From assembly GCA_016218825.1 (NCBI GenBank), contig JACRCV010000083.1:1-52777 (forward strand): a stretch of DNA of 52,777 nt, given 5' to 3'. The notes beneath the pieces were generated by a model. It did not search any database. It was not told the DNA's origin and saw only the letters and a list, made by a program, of their open reading frames with translations. The stretch comes from Deltaproteobacteria bacterium (GTDB lineage: Bacteria > Myxococcota > XYA12-FULL-58-9). Below are positions 34,433 through 52,777 of the stretch, in pieces. Each line of letters opens with the position of its first letter. Within the stretch, counting starts at the first letter, position 1. The position numbers and the translations under genes were made by a program.

Positions 34433-34960
34433 TCACCCACCGTAGAGCGCGCGGAGCTTCGTGCCAAGCAGCTCCTCGATGGCGTAGGTCGTGACGGCCG
34501 CGCGCCCGGTGAACCACCGGCTGTCGACGACGACCTCCTTCTGGACGAGCCCCAGGACCGTGAAGTGCTCGCGGGTGTTGATCTCGACTTTCAGACGCAT
34601 GGGTGTCACCGGCAGCGACTCGGAGTCGAAGCGGTAGTAGTAGGTGATGCGGCCCGCTCCCTGTTTGGTCTTGGGCTTGCCCAGCCAGGGATTGAGGCAT
34701 CCGTGGAGCGCCGACATGAGCCCCCCCGCCGGACCGGCCTCGACCTGTACGAGGTCGATGTCCTCGGAGTAGCGGCCTGGAGGGTCGAAGTAGAGCTTGT
34801 GCAGCGCCGTCCCGCCGCGAAACGCCAGCGCCTTGTTGAGCACCGGCTCGGAGAAGATGTCGATCAATGCTCTGGACAGCACGAGGTCCTGCTCGACTTG
34901 CGTGTCGAGCGGCCACGGTGCGCGCGCTCGCCAGGCTGTGATGTGCGCTCGCGGGATCAC
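34433..34960 (-). CDS. AbiEii/AbiGii-type nucleotidyltransferase toxin, C-terminally truncated
   Basis: A 175-residue toxin-type nucleotidyltransferase. The catalytic core is intact: FRGGTALHKLYF with the GG motif, then RYSEDIDLV with the DxD. The family partner AbiEi lies directly upstream with a 4-base ATGA overlap. AbiEii proteins normally run to about 300 residues; here the frame stops soon after the conserved EELLGTKLRALY, at which point the C-terminal helical half should begin. A deletion or recombination near 34433-34440 probably removed it. The toxin is therefore likely impaired. Confidence 0.82.
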   Translation of the reverse strand: MIPRAHITAWRARAPWPLDTQVEQDLVLSRALIDIFSEPVLNKALAFRGGTALHKLYFDPPGRYSEDIDLVQVEAGPAGGLMSALHGCLNPWLGKPKTKQGAGRITYYYRFDSESLPVTPMRLKVEINTREHFTVLGLVQKEVVVDSRWFTGRAAVTTYAIEELLGTKLRALYGG

Positions 34961-35772
34961 CCGGTGCCCTCGTCAGGCTCGACCTCGGCGTTGACCAGCA
35001 CGCGCCACTTCTCGTCCTTCGGCAGGCCGCGGATGACGCGAGTCGGACGCAGCGGCACCACGCGAGCGCGGCTCTTTCCGATCCACCGCGCCAGCTCACC
35101 CGAGACGCCCCCGCCACCGATGCGATCGAGGAGGTAGCCGAGCCTCTGGGCGGTGGCGCGCTCGCCTTCGCTACGAGCCACCTTGGCGAGGCGAGGACCG
35201 TCGAGTCTTTCCACCAGCTCGGAGAGCACGGTCGCCACGTTGCCGAGACCGCCGCTCGCCTTGGGGTAGCGCACCAGGTCGAGCGCAGTCGCCTCCGGGG
35301 TCGACACCGCCATCGCGCCGGTGTCGGTCTTTCTGCTCTCGGTCGGGGTCGCCTTGACGCCGCGCTTCACTACGAATCGCAGGCGCGCTCGCCCGGCGAG
35401 CATCATCGGCAGCGGTGCCGAAGTGACGATCTGGAACTCCTGGGGCTGTTGATGCGCGGCACCGTGGATCGCGGCGGCACTGAGCAGACCCACGTAGTAC
35501 GGTTGACCGACGAAGGCCATGAGGTCGTGGACGAACCAGGCGGGCGGCGGCGATCCGGCGCTCTGGTACTCCAGGGGCACGATCACGAAGAAGCCCTCGC
35601 GCGGCGAGCACAGCCGGTCGGCGAGCACCAGACGCCGCGCCGCCTTCTGCAAGGCGTCACGTCTCAGGCCGGTGTCCCGCTGGGCCTCTCGGGCGGTGAG
35701 GACGTAGCGGCCGGACGCCTGGAGACGGTCGACTAGCTCAGACAAGCTGGGATGGGCGGCTTTCATCTGCAT
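34957..35772 (-). CDS. AbiEi-type antitoxin
   Basis: A 271-residue antitoxin of the type IV AbiE system. A winged HTH (about 15-65: YVLTAREAQRDTGLRRDALQKA) is followed by the AbiEi_1 domain (about 65-200) with FVHDLMAFVGQPYYVGLLSAAAI, HGAAHQQPQEFQIV and ATALDLVRYP. It represses its own operon and prevents toxin action. The ATG at 35772 starts near an inverted repeat that is a good operator candidate. Its stop overlaps the toxin start. Confidence 0.88.
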   Translation of the reverse strand: MQMKAAHPSLSELVDRLQASGRYVLTAREAQRDTGLRRDALQKAARRLVLADRLCSPREGFFVIVPLEYQSAGSPPPAWFVHDLMAFVGQPYYVGLLSAAAIHGAAHQQPQEFQIVTSAPLPMMLAGRARLRFVVKRGVKATPTESRKTDTGAMAVSTPEATALDLVRYPKASGGLGNVATVLSELVERLDGPRLAKVARSEGERATAQRLGYLLDRIGGGGVSGELARWIGKSRARVVPLRPTRVIRGLPKDEKWRVLVNAEVEPDEGTG

Positions 35773-35899: not shown

Positions 35900-38587
35900 A
35901 TGTCGAAGCGGTCACACGAGCCCGAGTGGCGCACGCGCAAGGAGCGGATCGACCCCCGCCTAGACGCCAAGGGCTGGGCCAAGGCCAACCCCGGCGTAGC
36001 GCGCATAGGCGCGAGCCGCGTCGAGGAGCTGGAGACTGACCACGGCCCCGCCGACTACGCGCTCGCAATCGACGGCGCGGTCGTCGGCATCGTCGAGGCC
36101 AAGAAGCTGACGGTCGGTCCCCAGGGCGTCCTCACCCAGGCGGTGCGCTACGCCCGCGGCCTCACCACGAGCCGCTTCGACTTCGACGGCTGCAAGGTGC
36201 CGTTCCTGTACTCGACCAACGGCGAGGTCATCTGGTTCCACGACATTCGCAACCGGCTGAACCGCTCCCGCAAGGTCGCCGACTTCCACACGCCCGACGC
36301 CATGCGCGAGCTACTGGGTCGGGACTTCGACGGCGACTGTGAGGCCCTGCTCGCTCTGGCCCAGACCAGTACGCGCCTGCGCCCCTATCAACTCGCCGCC
36401 AACGCCGCCGTCGAGAAGGCCATCGCCGAGCGCAAGCGCCACATGCTCGTCGCGATGGCGACCGGCACCGGCAAGACCTTCACGCTCGTCAACCAGGTCT
36501 ACCGGCTCATGAAGGCTGGAGTCGCGCGCCGCGTGCTGTTCCTGGTCGACCGTCGCGCGCTCGCGGCGCAGGCGGTGCGCGCCTTCGCATCCTTCGAGGC
36601 CGAGCCAGGCCAGAAGTTCACCCAGCTCTACGAGGTCTACTCGAACCGCTTTCAGCGCGAGGACTTCGGCGACGACGACAAGTTCGACCCCAAGCTCATC
36701 CCCCAGCGCTACCTGGAAGCACCGAAGCCCAGCGACTCGTTCGTCTACATCTCGACCATTCAGCGGGTGGCGATCAACATCCTGGGGCGCGACGCGGTGC
36801 CGGGCCTGCCCGGTAGCACCGACGAAACCCTGGACGAGGACGCCGGCAAGCTCGACATCCCGATCCACGCCTTCGATGTCGTCATCGCCGACGAGTGCCA
36901 CCGCGGCTACACGTCGGCCGAGCAGTCGGTCTGGCGCAGCACCCTCGATCATCTCGACGCCATCAAGATCGGCCTGACGGCGACGCCGGCCCAGCACACC
37001 ACCGCCTACTTCCAGCACAAGGTGTTCGACTACGGCTACGAGCAGGCTGTCCGCGACGGCTACCTCGTCGACTACAACGTCGTCACCATCAAGTCCGACG
37101 TGCGGATGAAGGGCGTGTTCCTTGCCGAGGGCGAGCAGGTCGAGCGCGTCGATCCAGAATCCGGCATGACCCAGCTCGACCTCCTCGAAGATGAGCGCCA
37201 CTTCGAGACCACCGAGATCGAGGCCAAGGTCACGGCCCCTGACTCCAACCGGAAGATTCTCGAAGAAGTGAAGAAGTACGCGCTGGAACATGAGCAACGC
37301 TTCGGTCGTTTCCCCAAGACCCTGATCTTTGCGGTCAACGACGTGGCCCACACGTCGCACGCCGACCAGCTCGTCGACCTGGCGCGTGACGCGTTCGGGC
37401 GCGGCGATGCCTTTGTCCAGAAGATCACCGGCAAGGTCGACCGGCCGCTCCAGGCGATCCGCGAGTTTCGCAACCGCCGCGAGCCCGGCGTCGTCGTGAC
37501 GGTCGACCTGCTCTCGACCGGCGTCGACATCCCCGATCTGGAGTTCATCGTGTTCCTGCGGCCGGTGAAATCCAGAATCCTGTTCGAGCAGATGCTGGGG
37601 CGCGGCACCCGCAAGGGCGAACAGCACAAGGACAAGTCGCACTTCACCGTGTTCGACTGCTTCGACGGCACCTTGTTCGCCTACTTCAAGAACGCGACCG
37701 GCATCACGGCCGAGCCCATCGAGCGCAGCTCCCGGACCATCGTCGAGATCATCGAGGATGTCTGGAGCAACCGCGACCGCGACTACAACATCAAGTGCCT
37801 GGTGAAGCGGCTGCACCGCATCGACAAGGAGATGGCGGCCGAGGGGCGCGAGCTGTTCGCCGCGCACGTTCCAGACGGCGACCTCGCCCGCTACGCCCGG
37901 GGCCTCCCCGCGGCGCTCAAAGCCCCGTTCGCCGAGAGGATGGGCGCGCTGCGCAACCCGGGCTTCCAGAATCTGCTGGTCTCGTACCCGCGGCCGACCC
38001 GCGTGTTCTACGTGGCTCACGGCGCCGTCGATGAGGTCAGCTCGGCCTGGCTCGTGCGCGACGGCAACGGCGTCGAGTACAAACCGGATGACTACCTCGC
38101 GGCCTTCGAGCGCTTCGTCCGCGACAACCCCGACCACATCGAGGCGATCCGGGTGCTCCTCGATCGCCCCAAGGACTGGGGAACCGAGCCCTTGACCGAG
38201 CTGCGCACCAAGCTCGCCCAGGCCCACCAACGCTTCACCATCGAAAACCTACAGCGCGCCCACGAGGTCCACTACCACAAGGCCCTGGTCGATCTGATCT
38301 CGATGGTGAAGCACGCGGCCGACGAGACCAAACCTTTGCTCACCGCCGCCGAGCGCGTCGAGCGAGCCTTCAAGAAGCTGACGGCCGGCGAGACCTTCAC
38401 GCCTGAGCAACGGGCGTGGCTCGATCGCATCCGCGAGCACCTGATCCAGAATTTGTCGATCGAGCCGGACGACTTCGACATCGTGCCCGTGCTAGAGCAA
38501 GCCGGCGGCTACGGCGCGGCCAAGCGGGTGTTCGGCAAGCGCCTCGGCGGGCTCCTGCGGGACCTCAACGCGCTGATCGCCGCATGA
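35900..38587 (+). CDS. hsdR: Type I restriction enzyme R subunit (HsdR)
   Basis: An 895-residue motor/nuclease subunit. The N-terminal PD-(D/E)xK nuclease is visible as AIDGAVVGIVEAKK (D near 57, ExK near 65). The SF2 helicase follows: Walker A MATGTGKTFT (about 187), DECHRGYTS (about 330), LTATPAQ (motif III) and GRGTRKGEQHKDKS (motif VI). The C-terminal domain is of EcoEI type and binds the M subunits. HsdR translocates and cuts DNA when HsdM/HsdS find unmodified sites. The ATG at 35900 is used because the conserved domain starts there. hsdM starts 13 bases after the stop. Confidence 0.95.
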   Translation: MSKRSHEPEWRTRKERIDPRLDAKGWAKANPGVARIGASRVEELETDHGPADYALAIDGAVVGIVEAKKLTVGPQGVLTQAVRYARGLTTSRFDFDGCKVPFLYSTNGEVIWFHDIRNRLNRSRKVADFHTPDAMRELLGRDFDGDCEALLALAQTSTRLRPYQLAANAAVEKAIAERKRHMLVAMATGTGKTFTLVNQVYRLMKAGVARRVLFLVDRRALAAQAVRAFASFEAEPGQKFTQLYEVYSNRFQREDFGDDDKFDPKLIPQRYLEAPKPSDSFVYISTIQRVAINILGRDAVPGLPGSTDETLDEDAGKLDIPIHAFDVVIADECHRGYTSAEQSVWRSTLDHLDAIKIGLTATPAQHTTAYFQHKVFDYGYEQAVRDGYLVDYNVVTIKSDVRMKGVFLAEGEQVERVDPESGMTQLDLLEDERHFETTEIEAKVTAPDSNRKILEEVKKYALEHEQRFGRFPKTLIFAVNDVAHTSHADQLVDLARDAFGRGDAFVQKITGKVDRPLQAIREFRNRREPGVVVTVDLLSTGVDIPDLEFIVFLRPVKSRILFEQMLGRGTRKGEQHKDKSHFTVFDCFDGTLFAYFKNATGITAEPIERSSRTIVEIIEDVWSNRDRDYNIKCLVKRLHRIDKEMAAEGRELFAAHVPDGDLARYARGLPAALKAPFAERMGALRNPGFQNLLVSYPRPTRVFYVAHGAVDEVSSAWLVRDGNGVEYKPDDYLAAFERFVRDNPDHIEAIRVLLDRPKDWGTEPLTELRTKLAQAHQRFTIENLQRAHEVHYHKALVDLISMVKHAADETKPLLTAAERVERAFKKLTAGETFTPEQRAWLDRIREHLIQNLSIEPDDFDIVPVLEQAGGYGAAKRVFGKRLGGLLRDLNALIAA

Positions 38588-38600
38588 GGGAGAGTTGCGC

Positions 38601-40043
38601 ATGACGGATGTCGTCCAAAAGCTCTGGGGCTTCTGCCACACGCTGCGCCACGACGGCATCGACTACGGCGACTACATCGAGCAGATCACGTTCCTGTTGT
38701 TCTTGAAGATGGCCGACGAGAAGGCCATCGAGCTGCCGAAGAAGTGCGACTGGCCGGCGCTGCGCGACAAGTCCGGAACGGCGCTCACCGACCACTACGT
38801 CGACACGCTGCGCACGCTCGGCAAGCAGCCCGGCATCTTGGGCGACATCTACGCGGGCGCCCAATCGCGCTTCAACAACCCGGTGAGCTTGAAGAAGCTC
38901 GTCGGCGTCATCGACGAGACGGAGTGGAGCGCGCTCGGCGTCGACATCAAGGCCGCTGCCTACGAGGGCTTGCTGGAGAAGGCCGCCAGTGAAGGCAAGA
39001 AGGGCGCGGGCCAATACTTCACGCCGCGGGTGCTCATCCAGTCGATCGTGCGATGCATGAAGCCCGACCCGCGCTCCCGTCCAGATTTTTCGATCACCGA
39101 CCCCGCGTGCGGGACCGGTGGCTTCCTCGTCGCCGCCTATGAGTGGCTGATCTCCGAGACTAGACGCGGCGCACTGGAGCGCGATGTCGCCAGGCGCACC
39201 AAGACCAAGACCTACTTCGGCGAGGAGCTGGTGGCGCGGCCCCGGCGGCTCGCGCTGATGAACCTGTACCTGCACGGCATCGAGCCGCACATCCGCCTCG
39301 GCGACGCCATCTACGAGGCGCCCGAGCGCACCGCCGCGTTCGACTGCGTGCTGACGAACCCGCCGTTCGGCACCAAGGGCGCCAACCAGAACCCCGAGCG
39401 CGAGGACTTCACGGTCGCGACCTCGAACAAGCAGCTCAACTTCATCCAGCACATCCTCACGATCTTGAAGCCCGGCGGGCGCGCGGCGGTCGTGCTTCCC
39501 GACAATTGCTTGTTCGCCGACCAGGCCGGCGAAGTGTTCAAGATCGTCACCGAGGAGTGCGACCTGCACACGGTGCTGCGGCTGCCCCGCGGCACGTTCA
39601 CGCCGTACAGCCAGGGCGTCAAAGCCAACGTCGTGTTCTTCACCAAGGGCTATGCGACGGAGAAGGTGTGGATCTACGACGCCCGCACCAACGTGCCGGG
39701 CATCACCAAGAAGGACCGGCCGCTCGCCCCCGAGCACTTCGCGGAGTTCGACAAGTGCTACGGCGCCGACCCGAACGGCAAGGCCAAGCGCAAGGCGTCG
39801 GACAGCAAGCAGGACCGCTGGCGCTCGTTCGGCATCGCCGAGGTCAAGGAGCGTCAGTTCAAGCTCGATGGGTTCAAGTGGCTCAAAGAGGAGTCGCTGG
39901 AGGACGCCGACGACCTGCCCGAGCCCGAGGAGCTGGCGACGGAGGCGATCGGTGAGCTGGAGGGAGCCGTCGCTGATCTCCAGCGCGTCGTCGCGATGCT
40001 GGAGAACCCCGAGGCGGGGGCGCGGCCGGAGAGGACGGCGTGA
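38601..40043 (+). CDS. hsdM: Type I N6-adenine methyltransferase (HsdM)
   Basis: A 480-residue modification subunit. The HsdM_N helical domain (about 1-130) begins with VQKLWGFCHTLRHDGIDYGD. The N6_Mtase core has KKGAGQYFTPRVLI, the SAM motif DPACGTGGFL (168-177) and the catalytic TNPPFG (252-257). The C-terminus is a charged helical tail. GAGGGAGAG lies about 6 bases before the ATG at 38601. It forms the M2S enzyme with HsdS, which starts at the 4-base GTGA overlap with its stop. Confidence 0.95.
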   Translation: MTDVVQKLWGFCHTLRHDGIDYGDYIEQITFLLFLKMADEKAIELPKKCDWPALRDKSGTALTDHYVDTLRTLGKQPGILGDIYAGAQSRFNNPVSLKKLVGVIDETEWSALGVDIKAAAYEGLLEKAASEGKKGAGQYFTPRVLIQSIVRCMKPDPRSRPDFSITDPACGTGGFLVAAYEWLISETRRGALERDVARRTKTKTYFGEELVARPRRLALMNLYLHGIEPHIRLGDAIYEAPERTAAFDCVLTNPPFGTKGANQNPEREDFTVATSNKQLNFIQHILTILKPGGRAAVVLPDNCLFADQAGEVFKIVTEECDLHTVLRLPRGTFTPYSQGVKANVVFFTKGYATEKVWIYDARTNVPGITKKDRPLAPEHFAEFDKCYGADPNGKAKRKASDSKQDRWRSFGIAEVKERQFKLDGFKWLKEESLEDADDLPEPEELATEAIGELEGAVADLQRVVAMLENPEAGARPERTA

Positions 40044-41641
40044 GCGGCGCGGCCATCGAGAACGCCGCCGTCGAGGTTGATGGCGAGCTGCCGGAGGGGT
40101 GGACGCACGCAACGCTCGGCGGCGTTGCCGACGTGCAGCTCGGCAAGATGCTCGACAAGGCCAAACGTATCCGCGGGCAACGGCTGCCGTACCTGCGTAA
40201 CGCCAATGTCAGGTGGGGCCGTTTCGATCTCGGCGATCTGGAGGAAATGCCGTTCGAGGACCACGAACTCGAACGCTATGGGTTGAAGAATGGGGACCTG
40301 CTTGCGTGCGAGGGCGGGGAACCAGGGAGATGCGCGATCTGGGACGGTGGTCCCACCGACATCAAGTACCAGAAGGCGCTCCTCCGCGTGCGGCCGTCGT
40401 CGGGGGTCGTCGCCAAGTGGATCATGTTTCAGCTCCGGCACGACGCGCTCGGTGGGCGCCTGGAGACGTACTTCACGGGCAGCACGATCAAGCATTTTCC
40501 GCGCGAAGCCGCGCTTCGGTACCGACTTGTGCTGGCACCCCTCCCCGAGCAACGCCACATCGTCGCCAAGGTCGAGGCACTGTTGGCCCAGGTGAACGCG
40601 AGCCGCGAGCGGCTGGCGAAGGTCCCGGCGCTCCTCAAACGCTTCCGCCAGTCGGTCCTGGCGGCGGCGTGCTCGGGGCGATTGACCGAGGAGTGGAGGG
40701 CGGCCCATGGGTCGCAGCGCGAGGCTGCGTCAGACCTGGCGGCCTTTCGCGAAGCCCGGAGGTTGCGTCATGAGGCTGCGGCCAAGACCGGCAAGCGACG
40801 GATCGCGCGGCCTACGTTCTTGGAGGAGATCGAACACGACCAGGAGGTTCTGCCCGAGTTGGAGGAGATCCCTGCTGGTTGGACACTGGTTGCAGTCGGC
40901 AACGCATGTGAGCGCCTGCAATACGGAACCTCGGACAAGGCAGACGACGAGGCTAGGGGCGGCGTGCCCGTTCTTCGCATGGGGAACATCCAGGATGGCC
41001 GGCTTGACCTTGGCGACTTGAAGTTCATGCGGGAGACGCACGAGCTGCGATGTTTCCGCCTGTGCCACGGGGACGTGATCTTCAACCGGACCAACAGCCC
41101 GGAACTCGTAGGCAAGGCAGCGCTCGTCGACGTTGAGCAACCACTGCTGTTCGCGTCCTACTTGGTCCGCGTCCAGACGGCCGCCGAGATCCTGGACCCC
41201 GCCTACCTCACGTATTGGATCAACTCTGCCCTGGGGCGCGTCTGGGCCAGGCGAATCCGAACGGATGGTGTCAGCCAGTCGAACATCAACGCAACCAAGC
41301 TTGCCGAGATGCCTTTGCCCCTCCCACCGCTCGGTGAGCAACGGGAGATCGTCCGCCGCGTCGCCACATTGTTCAGGCTCGCCGACACCATCGAGGCGCG
41401 CGTCGCCGCTGGCACTGCCCGCGCCGACAAGCTGACCCAGGCGGTCCTCGCCAGGGCTTTCCGCGGCGAGCTGGTCCCGACCGAGGCCGCGCTGGCGCGG
41501 CGCGAAGGGCGAACGCCTCAACCAGCAATAGCCCAGTCCAAGCCCGAGCCCACAACCGCTCGTCGGACTGAGCGAAGCACGAAAGTGCGCGCCCGGGGCG
41601 CGCGTCGCCATCTTTCTCGAAGCAGCGGGATCAGCTCATAG
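40040..41641 (+). CDS. hsdS: Type I specificity subunit (HsdS)
   Basis: A 533-residue specificity subunit with two target-recognition domains, each followed by a conserved helical spacer. TRD1 (about 20-170) begins LPEGWTHATLGGVADVQLGK and ends at LPEQRHIVAKVEALLAQ. TRD2 (about 285-460) begins IPAGWTLVAVGNACERLQYG and ends at LGEQREIVRRVATLFRL. TRDs each read one half of a bipartite site; the site cannot be deduced. GTG start overlaps the hsdM stop. The last 50 residues are an Arg-rich tail of unclear origin. Confidence 0.93.
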   Translation: MSGAAIENAAVEVDGELPEGWTHATLGGVADVQLGKMLDKAKRIRGQRLPYLRNANVRWGRFDLGDLEEMPFEDHELERYGLKNGDLLACEGGEPGRCAIWDGGPTDIKYQKALLRVRPSSGVVAKWIMFQLRHDALGGRLETYFTGSTIKHFPREAALRYRLVLAPLPEQRHIVAKVEALLAQVNASRERLAKVPALLKRFRQSVLAAACSGRLTEEWRAAHGSQREAASDLAAFREARRLRHEAAAKTGKRRIARPTFLEEIEHDQEVLPELEEIPAGWTLVAVGNACERLQYGTSDKADDEARGGVPVLRMGNIQDGRLDLGDLKFMRETHELRCFRLCHGDVIFNRTNSPELVGKAALVDVEQPLLFASYLVRVQTAAEILDPAYLTYWINSALGRVWARRIRTDGVSQSNINATKLAEMPLPLPPLGEQREIVRRVATLFRLADTIEARVAAGTARADKLTQAVLARAFRGELVPTEAALARREGRTPQPAIAQSKPEPTTARRTERSTKVRARGARRHLSRSSGISS

Positions 41642-42387: not shown

Positions 42388-43476
42388 ATGTTCACACCCT
42401 CGCGCCTGACGCTGGCACGCAAGCGCCGAGGCTGGAGCAAGACCAGACTCGCCGAGGCGGTCGGCGTGACCACCCGCGCCATCGCCGCGTTTGAGAGTGG
42501 CGATCTCGCTCCGTCCGACGAGCGAGTAGCCGACATGGCCCGGGTATTGGGGTTTCCCAGGCCGTTCTTCGGTGGGCCGGACCTCTCCGAGCCTACGCCT
42601 TCAACCGCCAGCTTTCGAGCGTTGAAGTCCATGACCGCCGGTCAGCGCGACTCGGTGCTCGCCGCTGGCGCCCTCGCGATGGACTTGTGCCGATGGATTG
42701 ACGAGCGCTTTCAGTTGCCCGCCGTCGACGTGCCGAGCCTGCGTGACACGGACCCCGAGACCGCTGCCGCGACGCTCCGCTCACACTGGGGGCTCGGCGA
42801 GCTGTCGATCCGCAATGTCGTCCACCTACTCGAATCGCGTGGCGTGCGGGTGTTCTCGCTCGCCGAGGACTGCCACGAGGTCAATGCGTTCTCGCTGTGG
42901 CTCGACAGCACGCCGTTTGTGTTCCTGAACACAGCCAAGTCCGCCGAGAGCAGTAGGTTCGATGCCGCCCACGAGCTGGCGCACTTGGTCTTGCACGCCC
43001 ACGGGGGTCCAAGAGGTCGGGACACGGAACTGGAAGCCGACCGCTTTGCATCCGCGTTCTTGATGCCGCGCTCAACGGTCCTAGCACTGGGGCAACGGTG
43101 GCCCGGCGTCGATGATCTCATCCAAGCGAAGCGAAAGTGGGGCGTCTCGGTGGCAGCCCTCGCTCATCGCCTTCATGGTGTTGGGCTCGTTACGGACTGG
43201 CACTATCGAACGCTGTGCATCGACATTGCGCGCCGCGGGTTCAGGACAAGTGAGCCGAACACGATTCCACGGGAGACCTCGCAGGTTTTCGCCAAGGTGT
43301 TCTCTGCGCTGAGGGCAGAGGGCATGGGCAAGGAACAGGTGGCCCAGGCACTTTGCCTGAGCAACGATGACCTCGATGCGCTCGTGTTCGGGCTCGTGAT
43401 CTTGACCGTGCGTGGCGGGCAGAATCCGGCCGGACGTTCCGAGCACCGCAAGCGAAGCCCCCTGCGGCTTGTTTGA
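42388..43476 (+). CDS. XRE-family HTH fused to ImmA/IrrE metallopeptidase
   Basis: A 362-residue regulator-peptidase. The HTH (about 5-60) contains LARKRRGWSKTRLAEAVGVT. The ImmA/IrrE peptidase has the zinc motif HELAH (about 195-199) and the third ligand region ELEADRFASAFLMP. Proteins of this type cleave or sense repressors during stress or phage/ICE induction. The 80 C-terminal residues (VSAL...AQALCLSNDDLDALVF) form a helical extension of unknown use. The neighbouring type I genes and the upstream 211-residue gene place it in a defence-type cluster. Confidence 0.88.
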   Translation: MFTPSRLTLARKRRGWSKTRLAEAVGVTTRAIAAFESGDLAPSDERVADMARVLGFPRPFFGGPDLSEPTPSTASFRALKSMTAGQRDSVLAAGALAMDLCRWIDERFQLPAVDVPSLRDTDPETAAATLRSHWGLGELSIRNVVHLLESRGVRVFSLAEDCHEVNAFSLWLDSTPFVFLNTAKSAESSRFDAAHELAHLVLHAHGGPRGRDTELEADRFASAFLMPRSTVLALGQRWPGVDDLIQAKRKWGVSVAALAHRLHGVGLVTDWHYRTLCIDIARRGFRTSEPNTIPRETSQVFAKVFSALRAEGMGKEQVAQALCLSNDDLDALVFGLVILTVRGGQNPAGRSEHRKRSPLRLV

Positions 43477-44107: not shown

Positions 44108-44215
44108 CTACCGCCTGGTCTTCGCCATCTTCTTCATCGCGTCGTGACGATCCTCGACGTCGATAGTGTTGTAGCGCTCGAGCATCGCGAGCGTCTTGTG
44201 ACCGGTGATCTGCAT
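44108..44215 (-). pseudogene. C-terminal remnant of a tyrosine recombinase (integrase)
   Basis: The 35-codon fragment MQITGHKTLAMLERY then NTIDVEDRHDAMKK ends at TAG. GHKT..M..RY is the box II signature of tyrosine recombinases, including the late His and the nucleophilic Tyr. Sequence upstream of 44227 no longer resembles an integrase. It lies 256 bases from the tRNA-Leu fragment, as expected for an integrase next to its attachment site. Confidence 0.75.
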
Positions 44216-44312
44216 GAGCCCTGACTCCGGCCCGCGAGCGGCAGCGGCGTGGACCGCCCCACACCGCCCTGGTCAGCCAAGGCCACACCGCCGCGCCAGG
44301 GCGGCCAGAGGG

Positions 44313-44337
44313 TGAGGCGCGCGGGTGGCGCGCCTCA
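44313..44337. repeat. Perfect 10-bp GC-rich hairpin in the degenerate att region
   Basis: TGAGGCGCGC-GGGTG-GCGCGCCTCA is a perfect inverted repeat with a 5-base loop, between the integrase remnant and the tRNA-Leu fragment. No T run follows. The rest of 43997-44470 holds no gene apart from the integrase remnant. Confidence 0.6.
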
Positions 44338-44470
44338 GACCCCGCAGGCGGCGGCAATGATGGGACCGGCGACCATTGAGGAGCCGCCGAGGAGGCCGAG
44401 CGCGACAGCGCGAGCCCGGCGAAGGCCCGCCGCGAAGGCCGCAGGCCGAGCGGGGCGCCCAAGGATTGAT

Positions 44471-44529
44471 TGGTGCCGAGGGCGGGAATCGAACCCGCAC
44501 GCCCTTGCGGGCAGGGGATTTTAAGTCCC
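44471..44529 (-). other. 3' part of a tRNA-Leu(UAA), attachment-site scar
   Basis: Read on the minus strand the sequence gives an anticodon loop CTTAAAA (anticodon UAA), the 3' strand of its stem, a long class II variable arm (GCCC-GCAA-GGGC), a full T arm with GGTTCGATT, acceptor CCTCGGC, discriminator A and encoded CCA. The D arm and 5' acceptor strand (expected GCCGAGG) are absent: the match stops inside the 5' strand of the anticodon stem. Such a 3' fragment is the usual scar left at one end of an element integrated into a tRNA gene. Confidence 0.75.
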
Positions 44530-44654
44530 ATATCGGGGTCGGTAAAGGGGGTCACTCCATGTTGTTCGATGTGTCCCCATGCCCTGCCGAACGAGGCTTT
44601 GCGCGATTTGCGATGTGACACCCAAGTCCCCTGAGACACCTGGTTTGACCGCGG

Positions 44655-44675
44655 TTTGGTCACATTTCGGTCACA
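44655..44675. repeat. Direct repeats possibly acting as integrase arm sites
   Basis: GGTCACA occurs at 44658-44664 and 44669-44675, 11 bases apart, within TTTGGTCACA/TTTCGGTCACA. They lie about 130 bases from the tRNA fragment and on the right-hand side of it, a place where arm-type sites could be. Evidence is spacing only. Confidence 0.3.
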
Positions 44676-44715
44676 GTAGTTTCGCCGCCGCCACGGCACA
44701 GGTGAGCCCAACGCC

Positions 44716-45351
44716 TCAGAGGCCTTGGATCTCCTCGGCCTTCGCCCAAAAGACCCCTATCACCTGGTCGTCAGGGAACTGCTCTTTCATGTGCCGCCTG
44801 CCCGCCTCGAAATGGGCCCCGCTGGTAAGGATGTCATCCAGGATGCAGATGCAGCGTCCCGTCGATCGTCCCCATCGCTGCCGCTCGATTTCGACTACCG
44901 CCAAAGAGCGGTAGCAACCCTCGGCACTGCGCATCCCGCCATCGTGGTACGACCCTGAATCGACCCGCGTTTCCAGCACCGCCGACACAACGACGTTGGC
45001 ACAGCTCGACGCGATACCCGCGGCAACCCGCTCCAAACGGTCGTCATGTTCCGCGTGACCCTTTGGCCGAGATGGCGGCATCGGCACCACCAGAAACTGG
45101 AAGCCGACGTTGTGCGTGAAGAAGGCGGACGCCTCCTCTGCGAATCGTTGGATGGCTTGTCTCTTGTAGCCGAGCGGGCCTGGCCCCGAGGTTGGAGCGT
45201 GTTTCAGGTTGATGACGAGCTGATTGGTGTCGGAGTAGGAGAAGCCTTGCCTGACGGTGTAGGTGCGCGCGTAGAAGATGTTCTTGGAAACGTGGTCGGG
45301 ACAGTGGACGAGCTTGATCGACTCGTCGGCCTTGCGCCACCGAAGGGTCAC
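44716..45351 (-). CDS. Phosphoribosyltransferase-type protein, ShosT-like
   Basis: A 211-residue PRTase-fold protein. The PRPP-binding loop is visible as CICILDDILTSGAHF (about 165-179); VVPMPPSRPKGHAEHDDRL near 88 resembles a PRTase substrate loop; and the N-terminus has KLVHCPDHVSKNIFYAR. It overlaps the 3' end of a DprA-like gene by 4 bases. PRTase/DprA pairs of this form are known as ShosTA, an anti-phage toxin-antitoxin in which the PRTase protein is the toxin. The assignment rests on the pairing and motifs. Confidence 0.75.
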   Translation of the reverse strand: MTLRWRKADESIKLVHCPDHVSKNIFYARTYTVRQGFSYSDTNQLVINLKHAPTSGPGPLGYKRQAIQRFAEEASAFFTHNVGFQFLVVPMPPSRPKGHAEHDDRLERVAAGIASSCANVVVSAVLETRVDSGSYHDGGMRSAEGCYRSLAVVEIERQRWGRSTGRCICILDDILTSGAHFEAGRRHMKEQFPDDQVIGVFWAKAEEIQGL

Positions 45352-46280
45352 GCCGCAGCGCCCAGAGCCTCAAGAATCTCAGAGCCGTCCTTCACCCGCA
45401 CGGCACCGCGCCCGAGGTATTCCTCAGGCCACTTCAGGCCAGCATCGAAACATGAGTCCAGAATGAACAGCTTCCGCCGCTGTTGAATCGCAGCTTTCGC
45501 CTGAAACAGCGTTCCGCTCGTCTCAGACGCCTCCACGATGATCGTGGCATGGCTCAGCGCCGACATCGTCTTGTTGCGCTCAGGGAAAAACGCGCGATTC
45601 CCGCGCCAGTCGCGTTGTGATGCCAGATAGAATGGGACCTGTGTGACGACTAGGAAGTCCCTGGCAATCCTCCGCTGTAGCTCCTCGTTTGACTTCGGAT
45701 AGGACCCGCTCAAGGGCGTCCCGATTACGGCGATGGTCCGCCCACCGGCGTCGATCGCGGTCTGGTGCGCCGCAGTGTCGATGCCCTCGGCCAACCCGGA
45801 CATCACCGTGAGGTCGTGCTTCACCAAGAGCTGCACGAGCTTTCGGGTGCGCTTGATGCCCGCCTCGGTGGGTTGCCTGGTGCCCACGACCGAGACGGCG
45901 CGAGACGACAGGAGGTCGAGCACCCCCTGGTAGTAGAGCACTTCGATGGGGTACTGGGCGTCACGCAGTCGATTCGGATACTCAAAGTCGCGGTAGAACA
46001 GCGCGGCGTACTCCATGAACGGGAGGATGTCCCGCAGCCTATCCCTTACGGCCTCAACCTCCGGGTTGGCGATGCCCTCACGGGCGGCGACAACTGACGG
46101 CAGCGCGTGCTCGTGCCGGTCAAAGAGATCCGCGAGCCGCTTGACCGTCGTGAAGCGATTCCACAGCGCCTCGTATGCAGAGATCTCCCAGACCGGCTCA
46201 AACACCGGGGGATCGATGACCCCGCCCGAGACACCTGGCAGTTGTGCCTGGTGCTGGCCCAGTTTCAGCTCATTCGCCAT
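45348..46280 (-). CDS. DprA-like protein, ShosA-like partner
   Basis: A 310-residue protein with a Rossmann-fold DprA/Smf domain: SVVGTRQPTEAG (about 127), LTVMSGLAEGIDTAAHQTAI, GRTIAVIGTPL and RNKTMSALSHATIIVEAS. Chromosomal DprA is followed by a winged-helix domain; here a C-terminal ILEALG tail suffices and a helical N-terminal part (about 15-120) replaces other modules. The ATG at 46280 with GAGG 8 bases upstream is preferred over the ATG at 46304. It overlaps the PRTase gene by 4 bases. Confidence 0.8.
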   Translation of the reverse strand: MANELKLGQHQAQLPGVSGGVIDPPVFEPVWEISAYEALWNRFTTVKRLADLFDRHEHALPSVVAAREGIANPEVEAVRDRLRDILPFMEYAALFYRDFEYPNRLRDAQYPIEVLYYQGVLDLLSSRAVSVVGTRQPTEAGIKRTRKLVQLLVKHDLTVMSGLAEGIDTAAHQTAIDAGGRTIAVIGTPLSGSYPKSNEELQRRIARDFLVVTQVPFYLASQRDWRGNRAFFPERNKTMSALSHATIIVEASETSGTLFQAKAAIQQRRKLFILDSCFDAGLKWPEEYLGRGAVRVKDGSEILEALGAAA

Positions 46281-46383: not shown

Positions 46384-47121
46384 CTACCAATCCGCCCTCG
46401 GCCCAAACGCCATCAACTCTGCCCGCCGCTCATCATAGTCCGGCAGCACCCGCCCGAGTAGGCTCCAGTATGCCCGGCTGTGGTCCTTGTGGACGAGGTG
46501 GCAAAGCTCATGGGCTACAACGTAGTCCACGAGGCGCATCGGGGCTTGGATGATGCGCCAGTTGAACCGCACCACGCCGCGCTGGTCACAGCTCCCCCAC
46601 CGCTTGCGCTGATCCTTCACCACCACCGCGGGCATGGGCACGCCAACCTTGCGTCGCCACACCTCCACGCGCTCTGGGAGCCGCTGGGCCGCTCGCCCGA
46701 TGAGCCACCGCCGCAGACCCTCGGACGCCTCGCGGGCGGCCTCAACGGGCCCCCCGCCGCGTGTGACGGCCACCACGAGCCACCCGCAGTCCATGCGCGC
46801 GGGACCGGGCTCGACGGCGGGCAGCACCCTCAGCCGGTAGTGCCGCCCGAGATAGAGCACGGACTCGCCGCTCACGAATTCTCTGGCCGGCTGGGGCGCG
46901 TGCAGCCGCCCAACCATCCTCAGTCGCTCCACGATCCACGACGCTTTGCGATGCACGAGCCGGTCAAGTCTGGAAACGGCCACATCCTCCGGCGCGGTGA
47001 GGAGCACGCCCAGGCCGGGGTCAACGGCCACCGACACCGTGGCGCGTCTTGAGCTGCGCCGGACCTGGTAGGGGATCTGGGTCCGGCCATACTGCACCAC
47101 CGACCGCTCCGCGGCGATCAT
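46384..47121 (-). CDS. YgjP-type M48-like metallopeptidase (DUF45)
   Basis: A 245-residue zinc metallopeptidase-like protein. The N-terminal beta part has RRSSRRATVSVAVDPG and LYLGRHYRLRVLP; the C-terminal part has QRKRWGSCDQRGVVRFNWR and the zinc motif HELCH in VVAHELCHLVHKDHS (His near 205). YgjP-type proteins are often found with type I restriction genes; their substrate is unknown. The ATG overlaps the hsdR stop by 4 bases, so it is the last gene of the hsd operon. Confidence 0.87.
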   Translation of the reverse strand: MIAAERSVVQYGRTQIPYQVRRSSRRATVSVAVDPGLGVLLTAPEDVAVSRLDRLVHRKASWIVERLRMVGRLHAPQPAREFVSGESVLYLGRHYRLRVLPAVEPGPARMDCGWLVVAVTRGGGPVEAAREASEGLRRWLIGRAAQRLPERVEVWRRKVGVPMPAVVVKDQRKRWGSCDQRGVVRFNWRIIQAPMRLVDYVVAHELCHLVHKDHSRAYWSLLGRVLPDYDERRAELMAFGPRADW

Positions 47122-50100
47122 CGTGCAGTTCTCGCCTTAGCCAGGTCCACCATCCCCGCCGCCAGGCGCTCCACGTCATCGCCGGCAAACCCCGCGGCCC
47201 TGAGCTGCCGCTTGATCTTGCTGCGCATCTCCCGTTGCACGTCGTCCTTGACGTGCCAGTCCAACACGTCCAGGTCGCCCGCCATCGCCTCCGTCACGAG
47301 CGATGCCAAATCGCGGTTGGCGACGTTGTACGGGGCGCGCGCCTCAGCCGCTTGCACGGGCCTGGCCATCTCCAGCACGCCGTAGACCGCATACCCCAAG
47401 TCTGAGAGGCCCATGTCGTGAGCGGTATCGTGTACGCCGCCGATGTCCCTCACGATGGCTTTGAGCAATTCGAGTTGCTGGGCCGCCGATAGCCGCTGGG
47501 CCCGGCGCTGCTTGATGATCTCCTCCAGCCGCTCACGCAAAGTCTGGAAGAATGCCGGGTTCTCATCCAGGTGGACCGTGATCTCGTGCCGGACGGCGTG
47601 CTCCATCTCACTGGCCCTGGCCTCATCCGACTTGAGGTGCTTGAGCTTGCTCTCAAAATCCTTGGAGAAAAGCGGCACCTCTTTCACCAGAATCCGGATG
47701 CCATCAGCTTGCACGGCTTGCTCGATCAACTCCCGCACCTTGGCACCGCAGTCGGAGATGTCGAGACGGGGGTCATGGTAGCGCGCCCGCGCCGCCTGCC
47801 GAATCTTCCCAAGCCATTTGAGGTCGCCGATGAACCGAAGGGCCCGCGGGTCAGGCAGCATCATGTCCATCGACTGACTGAAGCGCCGGAAGGCCTGGTC
47901 GAAGTCGGCTCGCACGTCCTCGGGCTCAAGCACGGCCACGCATTCGTGCAGGTCGCTCTTGTCGGCGACCTTCTGGAAGTACCGCAGGGCCGCTTGGTGG
48001 CGTTGCTCAAGCCGCGGCAGCTCATCGGCCTTGGCGGTGAGCGCCCCTTTCACGTCGGTAGACGAGAAGATGGCGAGCGCCGCCTGGAGGTCATCGCTCA
48101 CGCCCCAGTAGTCGATGACCAGGCCGTAATCTTTGCCCGCGGCAGTGCGATTCACTCGGGCAATCGCCTGGAGGAGCGTGTGCTCCTTGAGCGGCGAGTC
48201 CAGGTACATGACTTGCTCAGCCGGCGCGTCGAAGCCGGTGAGGAGCATGTCGCAGACGACCAGGATGCAGAGCGGATCGTCTTTGTCCTTGAACCGCTCG
48301 ATGAGCCGATCCTGTTGGTCTTTGCGTAGGTGCCACTTGGCGAGCCGAGCCTCATCGTCGTTGGTGCCCGACATGATGAGCGCCGACTCGGGCGCGTGCA
48401 GCCGATTCAACGTCTCTTTGAACGTCGCGGCCACGTCGCGGCTCACCGCCACCACCTGGGCCTTGAAGCCGTTGGGCCGGATGAACTTCTGGAAGTGGTC
48501 GATCAGGTCGAGGCAGATCAACTCGATACGCCGCGGGGCACCGGCGATGGCCTCCTCGGTGGCGTAGCGCCTTTTGATTGCCGCCCGCTCATCCTCCGAG
48601 CGATCGACAAACACGCGGTCAAAGATGGCGTCCAGGTTGTTGCCGATGATGCGCAGCTCGGGGAGGCGGGCCTCGTAGTAGATCGGGACCGTGGCCTTGT
48701 CGGCGACCGCTTGCTCGATGGTGTAGGTGTCGATGTACGAGCCGAAGGTCTGGAGCGTGCTGCGATCATTCTTGTCGATCGGCGTGCCGGTGAAGCCCAG
48801 AAAGCAGGCGTTGGGCAACGCTCGGCGCATGTTGGCGGCCAGCCCCTTGTACTGACTGCGGTGGCACTCATCCACCAGCACGAAGATGTCCCCAGCCTCC
48901 GATAGAACGGGGTGCTCCTCGCGCTCGCCACGCTTGGATTTGTCGCGGCCACCGCGGGACGTTGCATCCTGGAACTTCTGCACCGTGGTCATGAGGGTTT
49001 TGCCGGTGGGGTGAGACAACAGCTCGCGCAGGTTGGCAACCGAGGTAGCGCGCTCGGGGTTCGGGAAGCCGCAGTTTTCAAACGTGGTCGTGATCTGACG
49101 GTCGAGATCGCGCCGGTCGGTGACGATGGCGATCGTGGGGTTTTGGAGGCTCGGGTTGCGGCGGAGCTTGAGCGCGATCCAGAGCATCGAGAGCGACTTG
49201 CCCGAACCCTGGGTGTGCCAGATGACGCCACCGCGCTCGGTGGGCTTCTTGGCCTTGGCGATGCGATCGAGGGCGCGGTTGACGGCGATGTACTGCTTGT
49301 ACCGGCACACCTTGCGCACGGTGCGGCCATTCTCAGTCTCGAACACCACGAAGTTGCGGAGGATGTCGAGAAGGTTGGCCGGCGACAGAAGGCCCGCGAG
49401 CAACGTGTCCTGGACGGTGAAGGTGCGGCCCAGCTCACGCTCAAGGTCATCCTTGGCCCGCGGAAAGGTGGTCGGCCATTCGTAGAAGAACCGCTGCACC
49501 GTGCCCACGGTGCCGTAGACCGCGTGCTCACCGCAGGCGGCGATGATGAGCTGCACGGGCTCGAATAGCTTGGGTGCCCCTTGCCCGCGGAAGCTCGCGT
49601 CAGCCTCTTCGTAGCGCACGAGCTGGCCCGTGGCGTCGCCCTGCCACTTGTCGCCTACGGTGGGGCTTTTGCACTCCATGATGGCGAGCGGGATGCCGTT
49701 CACGAGCACCACCACGTCGGCGATGATGTGCTTGCTCGTGCCCAGCACCTTGAACTGCCGGGTGACCACGAATTCGTTGGCCTTGATGTTGTCGAAGTCG
49801 AAGAAACGGACCGAATGGCCCTTTTTGCCGCCGCCGCGATCTTGCTCCAGTGCGATGCCGTAGGTCAGCGCGGTATGCACCTTCTCGTTGGCCTCGATGA
49901 GGCTCGTGGCACTGACGTTGGTGACGGTGCGGATGGCCTTCTTGACGTTGGCATCGGTCATCCACGGGTTGAGCTTCTTGAGCGCCCGGCTCAGGCGGCC
50001 TTCGATCACCACTTCTTTGAAGCTCTGCCGCTCGGCCTCCATCGCCTCGGGCTTCACGTAGGCGTACCCCAGGGACTCCAACAGCTCGATGGCCGGGCGC

Positions 50101-50144
50101 TCCGAGAGGCTGGCCTCATCCCAGTCGCGCCCGGGGCGGGTCAT
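47118..50144 (-). CDS. hsdR: Type I restriction enzyme R subunit (HsdR), second system
   Basis: A 1008-residue R subunit. The N-terminal nuclease has IIADVVVLVNGIPLAIMECK (D143, ExK 157-159). The helicase has Walker A HTQGSGKSLSM (about 311), DECHRSQYKG (about 426), FTGTPIDKND, and LLQAIARVNRTAAGKDYG (motif VI). The C-terminal part is helical. It differs in length and motifs (HTQGSGKS vs MATGTGKT) from the other HsdR in the window, so it is a different type I subfamily. It overlaps both neighbours: the AlbA_2 gene stop by 4 bases, the ygjP start by 4 bases. Confidence 0.95.
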   Translation of the reverse strand: MTRPGRDWDEASLSERPAIELLESLGYAYVKPEAMEAERQSFKEVVIEGRLSRALKKLNPWMTDANVKKAIRTVTNVSATSLIEANEKVHTALTYGIALEQDRGGGKKGHSVRFFDFDNIKANEFVVTRQFKVLGTSKHIIADVVVLVNGIPLAIMECKSPTVGDKWQGDATGQLVRYEEADASFRGQGAPKLFEPVQLIIAACGEHAVYGTVGTVQRFFYEWPTTFPRAKDDLERELGRTFTVQDTLLAGLLSPANLLDILRNFVVFETENGRTVRKVCRYKQYIAVNRALDRIAKAKKPTERGGVIWHTQGSGKSLSMLWIALKLRRNPSLQNPTIAIVTDRRDLDRQITTTFENCGFPNPERATSVANLRELLSHPTGKTLMTTVQKFQDATSRGGRDKSKRGEREEHPVLSEAGDIFVLVDECHRSQYKGLAANMRRALPNACFLGFTGTPIDKNDRSTLQTFGSYIDTYTIEQAVADKATVPIYYEARLPELRIIGNNLDAIFDRVFVDRSEDERAAIKRRYATEEAIAGAPRRIELICLDLIDHFQKFIRPNGFKAQVVAVSRDVAATFKETLNRLHAPESALIMSGTNDDEARLAKWHLRKDQQDRLIERFKDKDDPLCILVVCDMLLTGFDAPAEQVMYLDSPLKEHTLLQAIARVNRTAAGKDYGLVIDYWGVSDDLQAALAIFSSTDVKGALTAKADELPRLEQRHQAALRYFQKVADKSDLHECVAVLEPEDVRADFDQAFRRFSQSMDMMLPDPRALRFIGDLKWLGKIRQAARARYHDPRLDISDCGAKVRELIEQAVQADGIRILVKEVPLFSKDFESKLKHLKSDEARASEMEHAVRHEITVHLDENPAFFQTLRERLEEIIKQRRAQRLSAAQQLELLKAIVRDIGGVHDTAHDMGLSDLGYAVYGVLEMARPVQAAEARAPYNVANRDLASLVTEAMAGDLDVLDWHVKDDVQREMRSKIKRQLRAAGFAGDDVERLAAGMVDLAKARTAR

Positions 50145-51031
50145 GGGCTCACTGCCTTCAGCCGCTGGAGGACGTGCTCGGCGGCGATGACCACCTGCGG
50201 GGCAATTTCGGCGATCAGAGACTTTGGGCTCGTTCGTGTCCCAGAGTAGCTGCGGTCCCGAGGCATGAGGGCGAACGCCGCCAGCGGGGCCAACGCTGTA
50301 TCGAGCCTCGACCCATGCTCGATGAGCAAGTGCAGCTCGTTGACCAGCAACGGGTCGCCGCCTATCTCTCCAAACAGCGGCACGATGGCCGTCTTGATCT
50401 GAGCCACGTCGATGCGCGTCAGCAACACGTCGGTGTCGGGAACATTGGCGTGGGCCAGGATGTTCAGGTGTTTCGCGACTTCAAGAATTCGTGCCACCTC
50501 GGCTTTGAGCCACAAGAGGTCCTGGCGCTTGCGGCCGGCCTCCAGGAACGACAGACGCACTTCATCGTAGGACATGGGCTCAGTGCCCCGGTTCGTTCGC
50601 CTGCAAAACCAGAGTCGGCCATTGTTGTCCCGCACCCCATGCGGCTTCCGCTTGCTCTCAGGGACGTGGACGACGTGGACCACCTTGCCCGAGTCTAGAG
50701 GCAGCGGTGGATTGAGGAACGTCCACTCGACAGACGGCTCCGCCTGAGCTGGAAAGCTCCCAAAGTGCTCTGGCAGCTCCAGGGTTGAATCGACACCGAC
50801 CAGCCGGTCCGTCAAAGCTAGTTCTCGGTCGTCGCGCACGCCGAAGATGAGGAATCCCCCGCTTGCGTTGGCGAAGGCTGCACACGTCTGGACGAGCCGC
50901 GCCTTGCCGCCGGCATCGTCGGGATGGGGCAACATCTCTTTGAAGTCGAAGCGGTCTGACTCGAACGCTCCCTGGGACAGCAGCTCTCGAATCGCATCGA
51001 GCGTCCATCCGCCGAGGGATTCCGGGATCAT
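50141..51031 (-). CDS. AlbA_2 domain (putative ATP/RNA-binding) protein in a type I operon
   Basis: A 296-residue protein. The AlbA_2 domain (about 25-150) has SDRFDFKEMLPHPDD and ANASGGFLIFGVRDD, then VVHVVHVPESKRKPHG and RTNRGTEPMSYDE. Such domains (Schlafen-like) occur in transcriptional regulators and RNA-binding proteins and often stand between hsdS and hsdR. The C-terminal 120 residues are helical. It overlaps both neighbours by 4 bases. Its role may be control of restriction, unproven. Confidence 0.82.
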   Translation of the reverse strand: MIPESLGGWTLDAIRELLSQGAFESDRFDFKEMLPHPDDAGGKARLVQTCAAFANASGGFLIFGVRDDRELALTDRLVGVDSTLELPEHFGSFPAQAEPSVEWTFLNPPLPLDSGKVVHVVHVPESKRKPHGVRDNNGRLWFCRRTNRGTEPMSYDEVRLSFLEAGRKRQDLLWLKAEVARILEVAKHLNILAHANVPDTDVLLTRIDVAQIKTAIVPLFGEIGGDPLLVNELHLLIEHGSRLDTALAPLAAFALMPRDRSYSGTRTSPKSLIAEIAPQVVIAAEHVLQRLKAVSP

Positions 51032-52314
51032 GCGGCCTCGCCCCCCCGCAACGACACCCGGACGCGGCCAGTGAGCAGTGCGGACGAGAGCGCAACCTTG
51101 AGCTGCGACAGACTTGCTTGATTCCGGGTGCTCACGTCAACGAGGCTGCCAATAACACGCAGATTGTCGGCGATCTCCCTTTGCTCGCCAACGGGCGGCA
51201 CCGCTACAGCCAAACTCCGCATCCTGGTTGGGTTGATGTTCGACTGACTCACACCCTTGGTAGCGATTGCCTTCAACCTCCTTTGCATGTCTGGCGCGGC
51301 CAACCGAGCGTGAAGCCATGCGGGGAAGCATCTCTCGCGGTTGGTTCGGAGGCGGAGCAGGTAGCTCGCGTATGAAAGCTGTCGTTCCGTGGTCACCAGT
51401 GCGACTTTGCCGACCAGGTCGACGCTGTTGGTGCGGTTGAACAAGATGTCACCGACGCGCAAAAGCACCTTGCCTTGGTCTTGATCTTCCAGGTCCGCGA
51501 ATCTCAGCTCCGTCAGGTCCAGTTGATCGTTCCTGATATTCCCCATGCGAAGCACCGGGACAAGCGCCGAGTCGGCAGAGAGCGGGCAGTTCACGCCGTA
51601 GGTGCAAGACTCCAGGAGCGAGCCAATCGCCATCACCTCCCAACTCGCCGGTACCCTACCGATTTCGGTCTGCTTGAACTTGGTGTGCCGCCCCGGCATC
51701 CCGCGGTTCAGGAGTTGGTGCATCAGCCCCTTCTTGACCACCTGCACCTGCTCGATCACGGCCTCGGCCTTGACGATGGCGTCGTCCACGGACGACAAGA
51801 TGGCCGCGATCTTGCGTTGCTCGCGGATCGGGGGCACGGGGAGATGTATCTCTGATGTGAACTTCTGGTTGAGAGTACGATTGCGGCCCGCGCCACCCGG
51901 CGAGGCATCACCAAGCAACCTGATACCCAGCCGGCTCTGGAAGAACCGGCGCAGAAACCCCACGTCCACAAGATCATCATCGGTGGGCACGAACATCGGG
52001 AAGCGGTGGGAGGCGATCATCCCTTGTTCTCTATCGCTGGTTACTGCCACAGCCCCCTCCCACGCGAACACGATGTTGAACACGAGGGATCGCGGGACGA
52101 CTGCAAATACACGTTTGTCACCCAAGGCCGCGCCAGTGACAGGCTCCTTGTGGAAGAGTCCCTTCCCGTGGGAGCGGATGCCAATCTCGCGGTAGACGGC
52201 ATTGGGTTCCACACGGACGGCCGTTGTAGCTCGTTGCAGCACCGTGCCGAGCTGCATGACTTGCCAGTCCCTCGGTATCGGTCCAACGGCGGACGGCACC
52301 CGGTCAGCCGGCAT
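51028..52314 (-). CDS. hsdS: Type I specificity subunit (HsdS), second system
   Basis: A 428-residue specificity subunit. TRD1 (about 10-180) starts at IPRDWQVMQLGTVLQRA and ends with IREQRKIAAILSSVDDAI; TRD2 (about 220-390) starts with VPASWEVMAIGSLLESC and ends with VGEQREIADNLRVIGSLV. The two helical spacers are conserved in position. The ATG at 52314 has AAGGA 8 bases upstream; TTG at 52320 is an alternative. It overlaps the hsdM stop by 11 bases. It is unrelated in TRD sequence to the other HsdS. Confidence 0.9.
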   Translation of the reverse strand: MPADRVPSAVGPIPRDWQVMQLGTVLQRATTAVRVEPNAVYREIGIRSHGKGLFHKEPVTGAALGDKRVFAVVPRSLVFNIVFAWEGAVAVTSDREQGMIASHRFPMFVPTDDDLVDVGFLRRFFQSRLGIRLLGDASPGGAGRNRTLNQKFTSEIHLPVPPIREQRKIAAILSSVDDAIVKAEAVIEQVQVVKKGLMHQLLNRGMPGRHTKFKQTEIGRVPASWEVMAIGSLLESCTYGVNCPLSADSALVPVLRMGNIRNDQLDLTELRFADLEDQDQGKVLLRVGDILFNRTNSVDLVGKVALVTTERQLSYASYLLRLRTNRERCFPAWLHARLAAPDMQRRLKAIATKGVSQSNINPTRMRSLAVAVPPVGEQREIADNLRVIGSLVDVSTRNQASLSQLKVALSSALLTGRVRVSLRGGEAA

Positions 52315-52639
52315 ATCCAAGATCCTTGAGATATTTGTTCATCACTCGCTCGGCCTCACCGCGCTCCTTTTCCAGCACCCGGAGCATCTTGACCGCGCCG
52401 GCAACGTCGATCTCCTCTTCGGCCTCGGCTGTTTCAACGTACCGTGAGATGTTGAGGTTCCAGTCGTTCTTCTCGATCTCGATGACCGGGACCATGCGGG
52501 CGTAACGCTCCACGCTTCTGCCGGCGTGGAAAGTCTTGGCGATCTTCTTCACATCTTCATCACGCAAGTAGTTCTGGGTCGTGCCCTGATGAAACTCCCG
52601 CGAGCCGTCGATGAACATCACCTTGCCCTTGCGGCTCGG
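52304..52639 (-). pseudogene. 3' fragment of hsdM, cut by an insertion sequence
   Basis: The last 111 codons of a HsdM gene: RKGKVMFIDGSREFHQG, NYLRDEDVKKIAKTFHAG, and a C-terminal helical tail with VMNKYLKDLGYAG. The N6_Mtase catalytic core (TSPACGTG/NPPF) is missing from the window. Directly upstream at 52640 the sequence changes to an IS end, so the gene is interrupted. The remaining part may lie beyond the IS, outside the window. Confidence 0.8.
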
Positions 52640-52777
52640 GTAAGCGTTCACGCCCTCATGCCGCCGCGAGCATGACGTGATCTTGGTCAGGGAGCAACGA
52701 CGGAGCTGCGGAGCCAGTCAACTGCGCGGTGCAGGCCGCGGTGATGAACTCGAGCACATTGCGCTCCTGCTGGCGCA
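52640..52777 (-). mobile_element. End of an IS66-like element in hsdM
   Basis: The plus-strand sequence from 52640 begins GTAAGCGTTCACGCC, of the GTAA type that I recall for IS66-family termini. Only 16 bases in, the stop codon (52656-52658) of a transposase C-terminus occurs, which fits the compact right end of such elements. The rest of the element lies to the right of the window. Family assignment is tentative. Confidence 0.55.
52656..52777 (-). CDS. Transposase C-terminal tail (IS66-like), partial
   Basis: The frame reads RQQERNVLEFITAACTAQLT then APSLLP and ends LAAA. The RxxRxVLxFL...A....G..APSLLP pattern is that of the C-terminal tail of transposases I associate with IS66-type elements. 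Its 5' part is outside the window. It is transcribed toward the hsdM fragment. Confidence 0.5.
   Translation of the reverse strand, partial: RQQERNVLEFITAACTAQLTGSAAPSLLPDQDHVMLAAA

Follow-up and report, generated by a model that had tools for sequence, protein, structure and literature searches.

In the tRNA-gene (tDNA) islands collected by Islander, a regenerated tRNA gene stands at one end, a tyrosine integrase gene lies inside, and a 3′ fragment of the same tRNA is displaced to the other end in the same orientation, with a core of the anticodon type (PMC4383910). Mycobacteriophage attachment (att) sites of the Boilgate type have a core that is flanked by arm-type sites; phage Boilgate has a 43-base-pair (bp) tRNA core with five differences, and strand exchange takes place before the first of these (PMC10865867). 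With lambda-type integrases, arm-type sites as a rule flank the core on either side (PMC2951348, PMC10865867). A layout like the one found here, common cores with mismatches, and arm sites are on record in PMC4383910, PMC10865867 and PMC2951348. Here we describe a tRNA-Leu(UAA) fragment among the defence genes of a 52,777-nucleotide (nt) stretch of DNA from Deltaproteobacteria bacterium (assembly GCA_016218825.1), referred to below as the window. In the source genome, whose assembly has 121 contigs, totals 6.54 Mb and is about 96.5% complete, contig C62 and the window are one and the same. The fragment is very probably the distal attachment junction of a single tyrosine-integrase genomic island inserted in tRNA-Leu(UAA), whose integrase end is on another contig, C64.

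The fragment consists of 59 nt, GGGACTTAAAATCCCCTGCCCGCAAGGGCGTGCGGGTTCGATTCCCGCCCTCGGCACCA, and the 5′ half of the tRNA is absent. Neither ARAGORN nor Rfam detects a complete tRNA anywhere in the window. Identity with the intact tRNA-Leu(UAA) of the same genome begins in the anticodon stem and reaches the CCA 3′ end, and at 56 identical positions of 59 (expectation value, E, 1.7e-20) the fragment is not a chance match. Two of the three differences are the two sides of one base pair in the variable arm, C-G in the fragment and A-T in the intact gene, and the third is a T-loop position. A search of the genome with the fragment gives three matches: itself, the intact gene (C64:55381-55439) at 95% and a tRNA-Leu(CAA) on contig C118 at 81%. 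Thus no further tRNA-Leu(UAA) fragment is found in the assembly by this search; there is also no other piece of 17-25 nt in the window, and the exact fragment has no match in viral contigs. The initial annotation had reported a 3′ part of this tRNA lacking its 5′ half, running from the anticodon stem to CCA, and this holds, with an end that differs by 1 nt from the earlier count.

The intact tRNA-Leu(UAA), at C64:55353-55439, is the only one found in the genome. A full-length tyrosine integrase gene starts 133 bp past its CCA and reads in the same direction. It is followed by a gene for a 275-amino-acid (aa) protein without a family match, an MT-A70 methyltransferase gene, and a gene for a 411-aa protein, also without a family match; the contig ends in an insertion sequence that cuts into this last gene. 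In an order-level relative, a relative of the integrase, with 46% identity over its N-terminal 193 residues, is encoded some 90 bp past tRNA-Leu(CAA). An intact partner for the fragment had been predicted further to the right; it exists, with an integrase, on a separate contig. The arrangement on C64 is like attL of the KplE1 IntS system (PMC2951348) in that the tRNA 3′ end lies close to the integrase gene and the integrase promoter region overlaps the attachment site. It is unlike that system in that the integrase is a different one and the arm sites here are predicted from sequence.

A 17-nt motif, ACTGTGACCGAAATGTG, pairs the two junctions. On C64 it lies between the tRNA and the integrase gene, 73 nt after CCA, and in the window it lies just to the right of the fragment, 131 nt away; in both places its strand with respect to the tRNA is the same. 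The 6.54 Mb contain exactly two copies, one beside each junction, even when up to 2 mismatches are allowed, and the reversed motif used as a control has no match in the genome. The longest common word reached 14 nt in 2000 dinucleotide shuffles of both flanks, and 16 nt in 3000 random pairs of 300-nt pieces taken from C64 and C62. We conclude that the integrase end of one island is on C64 and its distal end in the window. By analogy with lambda-type systems, the motif is most likely an arm site bound by the N-terminal domain of the integrase.

The polarity of both contigs is consistent with this assignment, under which the 3′ fragment would be downstream of, and in the same orientation as, the intact gene. 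Of the features used by Islander, an intact tRNA at one end, a displaced fragment of that tRNA and a tyrosine integrase gene inside are present. In the proposed mechanism, the island would have arrived with a tRNA 3′ half of its own, recombination would have restored a working tRNA at one end (C64:55353-55439), and the old 3′ half would have been displaced to the opposite end (44471-44529 of the window). The island would then begin at C64:55440, continue across at least two insertion sequences that have inserted into it and a gap in the reading, enter the window at position 52777 and extend leftward to 44530, with the order hsdM′-hsdS-AlbA_2-hsdR-YgjP-ShosA-ShosT. Islander takes islands of 2-200 kb; of the present one at least 12.5 kb is seen, 4.3 kb on C64 and 8.2 kb on C62, with the interior unread. 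DNA to the left of 44471 would be outside the island, in a chromosome that already bore an older, partly decayed defence cluster. The earlier proposals that the fragment marks the distal end of an element to its right, and that the right-hand block with its ShosTA-like pair and second hsd operon is one island, are thus borne out: the block is the distal part of the tRNA-Leu(UAA) integrase island. The locus departs from the Islander examples in that its ends are on two contigs, it is interrupted by insertion sequences and its interior is partly unread. The coordinates of the features are collected in Table 1.

Table 1. Features of the window, and of the integrase end on contig C64
Feature	Position	Strand	Evidence or remark
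AbiEii toxin, truncated	34433..34960	-	171/260 profile positions
AbiEi antitoxin	34957..35772	-	left-hand block
hsdR-hsdM-hsdS operon	35900..41641	+	left-hand block
RmrA-like regulator, helix-turn-helix (HTH) and M78 peptidase	42388..43476	+	RmrA E 4.6e-154
Tyrosine-recombinase C-terminal remnant, about 40 codons with GHKT box and catalytic Tyr	44108..44230	-	homology to full-length recombinases
Displaced 3′ fragment of tRNA-Leu(UAA), anticodon stem to CCA	44471..44529	-	56/59 match to intact C64:55353-55439
Second 11-bp arm-motif copy TGTGACCAAAC	44654..44664	-	tandem to the first; 2 mismatches to TGTGACCGAAA, 11-bp spacing
Probable integrase arm-type site ACTGTGACCGAAATGTG	44661..44677	-	island side of fragment; exact copy on C64
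ShosT-like protein	44716..45351	-	PADLOC ShosT E 9.5e-31
ShosA-like (DprA-family) protein	45348..46280	-	PADLOC ShosA E 3.8e-84; PF02481 E 5.3e-54
YgjP-like metallopeptidase	46384..47121	-	PF01863 E 7.1e-55
Type I restriction HsdR	47118..50144	-	HSDR_N, SWI2_SNF2, TIGR00348 E 2.2e-169
AlbA_2 (Schlafen-like) protein	50141..51031	-	PF04326 E 1.8e-13
HsdS specificity subunit	51028..52257	-	PF01420 E 3e-14
C-terminal part of hsdM, cut by insertion sequence	52304..52639	-	matches only N6_Mtase positions 237-310
End of multicopy insertion sequence, tip GTAAGCGTTCACGCC, ends contig	52640..52777		137-138 bp common to ends of C1, C8, C119
Tyrosine integrase, full length, 340 aa	C64:55572-56594	same direction as tRNA	PF00589 E 1.3e-20; phrog_1 integrase E 1.4e-49

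Several points weigh against a single island. The two contigs are unjoined in the assembly, each ending in a multicopy insertion sequence; the fragment and the intact tRNA are mismatched at 3 of their 59 positions, which is normal for such cores, to judge from those in PMC10865867, but would also permit an origin from a different, related insertion; and the exact empty site was not recovered. Because of the terminal insertion sequences the join between C62 and C64 is not read directly, and the two contigs show no end overlap. C64 ends (C64:59571-59710) in a different and more abundant element than the window does, starting about TGATTCGCCCGTAAAAACCCC and ending ten contigs. The lack of a link between the contigs, the mismatches and the incompleteness of the assembly also leave room for an earlier, related island of the same integrase family to have left the window fragment as its distal end, with the C64 integrase belonging to a later island whose distal end fell in an assembly gap. 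We regard this as improbable: with two islands, a second fragment and at least a third copy of the motif would be expected, and each junction is present exactly once in the genome. A lone 3′ fragment could in principle come from other rearrangements, although no tool result favours it, and be a chance or non-mobile tRNA pseudogene unlinked to the flanking defence genes. Such an origin is highly improbable and is largely refuted by the motif search. The endpoints are exactly those of an att site (anticodon stem to CCA), an integrase adjoins the cognate gene, and both ends share a unique motif.

More weight has to be given to a tandem array, which the initial annotation had favoured, with the left-hand block of AbiE, hsdRMS and RmrA as a second tRNA-Leu island, its integrase surviving as the remnant (44108-44230), and the fragment as the common junction. 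The remnant lies about 240 bp beyond the fragment on the same strand, just to its left, as expected of an integrase that follows a tRNA end, and the block is rich in defence genes and has a lower guanine-plus-cytosine content than the DNA left of 20 kb. However, in the published definition of a tandem array every member has its own tRNA fragment and its own integrase gene (PMC4383910). The left-hand block has neither of the two, and it also lacks the arm motif: what there is amounts to one fragment and one 40-codon remnant, and neither a third tRNA-Leu(UAA) fragment nor a third arm site occurs in the genome. Direct repeats able to bound the block are short and imperfect, none of them convincing. 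The remnant itself (PESGLMQITGHKTLAMLERYNTIDVEDRHDAMKKMAKTRR, minus strand 44230-44111, with a stop at 44110-44108) has 40-52% identity to full-length tyrosine recombinases. Its closest relatives near a tRNA are found at tRNA-Met, -Arg, -Pro, -Ser, -Phe and -Thr, in both orientations, and it therefore cannot be assigned to tRNA-Leu. An array of two islands is thus unlikely, and the claim that the left-hand block is a second island was not upheld. The integrase C-terminus reported beside the fragment is present, with a recognisable homology of about 40 codons in place of the 35 given before.

The remnant has no match in plasmids and phages, and it looks like the relic of another, older element. 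An integrase gene that crosses attP, as in Mx8, was considered and rejected: the reading frame from the fragment to the remnant contains a stop and no integrase motifs, and the C64 integrase is full length. The left-hand block is most simply read as chromosome in which an older defence cluster is decaying and a relic of another element persists; less probably, it is a former tandem partner whose ends were lost. The AbiEii toxin lacks about 90 C-terminal residues, ending TKLRALYGG*, and the AbiE pair is probably broken.

For the single island with its distal end in the window, the position of the crossover bears on which half of the tRNA is whose. By analogy with Boilgate, strand exchange probably took place in the first 18 nt, within the anticodon stem-loop. 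Unlike Boilgate, the core here is 59 nt long with 3 mismatches, of which two form a compensated base pair in the variable arm, and the cargo is of defence genes in an unrelated host. If the exchange was in the anticodon stem-loop, the fragment is the host's old 3′ half, and the 3′ half of the working gene is that of the island. The host has a single detected leucine tRNA gene that reads UAA, and the island may then have replaced two thirds of it, on the 3′ side, with an allele of its own, leaving the fragment as a fossil of the host original; this we put forward tentatively, with somewhat more doubt than confidence. The replacing allele would include the compensated variable-arm base pair and the T-loop change. 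Relatives leave the ancestral version at the three differing positions undecided because the variable arm changes too fast. Should the fragment be the host original and the left flank chromosome, an island-free site would have a 3′ half with C..G and T, followed by ATCAATCCTTGGG.

The region before tRNA-Leu(UAA) in a genome of the same genus (G001) has three genes with matches among those that precede the tRNA on C64, one of them at 71% over 407 aa. No integrase follows tRNA-Leu(UAA) there, and the lipoprotein gene found downstream has no counterpart in the source genome (G000), which is why the exact empty site could not be recovered. A comparison of the left half of the window with the tRNA-Leu neighbourhoods of relatives gave just a paralogous sigma factor and similar weak matches. 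A gene of 90 aa stands directly before the tRNA in G001, and likewise in G004 by a weaker match; on C64, two large minus-strand genes (937 and 713 aa; C64:50239-55268) lie between this conserved gene and tRNA-Leu(UAA), and they are a separate insertion upstream of the tRNA.

Within the same phylum, G054 has a complete 12-kb island at tRNA-Leu(UAA) (C9:68453-80608), with the fragment 12 kb downstream. The tRNA and the polarity are the same as here, and identity extends from the anticodon loop to the 3′ end. Unlike the present island, it is complete, and its integrase is a different protein, encoded mid-island and not adjoining the tRNA. Thus tRNA-Leu(UAA) also serves as the site of an unrelated island in another member of the phylum. 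In G002 a contig stops inside tRNA-Leu(UAA) just past the anticodon region (C245:34439-34494), as if the 3′ half were repeated, and an island at this tRNA is possible there too.

All genes of the right-hand block, from the fragment rightward, are on the minus strand. Its HsdR has no match in viral contigs. The two hsdS genes, one in each block, have 38% protein identity and share inverted repeats of 44-47 nt (window 41254-41297, 51225-51268 and nearby), likely representing common conserved regions. The multicopy insertion sequence at the window end, which we take to be IS66-like from its tip sequence, interrupts hsdM, the N-terminal part of which is found nowhere in the assembly. The short reading frame of this insertion sequence has no Pfam match. 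The same element also concerns contigs C1, C8, C119, C35, C65 and C100. Among four right ends and three left ends no matching target duplication joins its flanks, which hints at rearrangement between copies of the insertion sequence.

Overall, the structure is an ordinary tRNA-borne genomic-island junction of a known kind. A short motif common to both attachment junctions can pair the ends of an island across contigs that are broken by insertion sequences. The junction fixes the exact edge of the defence island, and the ShosTA-like pair, like the second type I restriction system, thereby becomes assignable to a mobile element and not to the chromosome.
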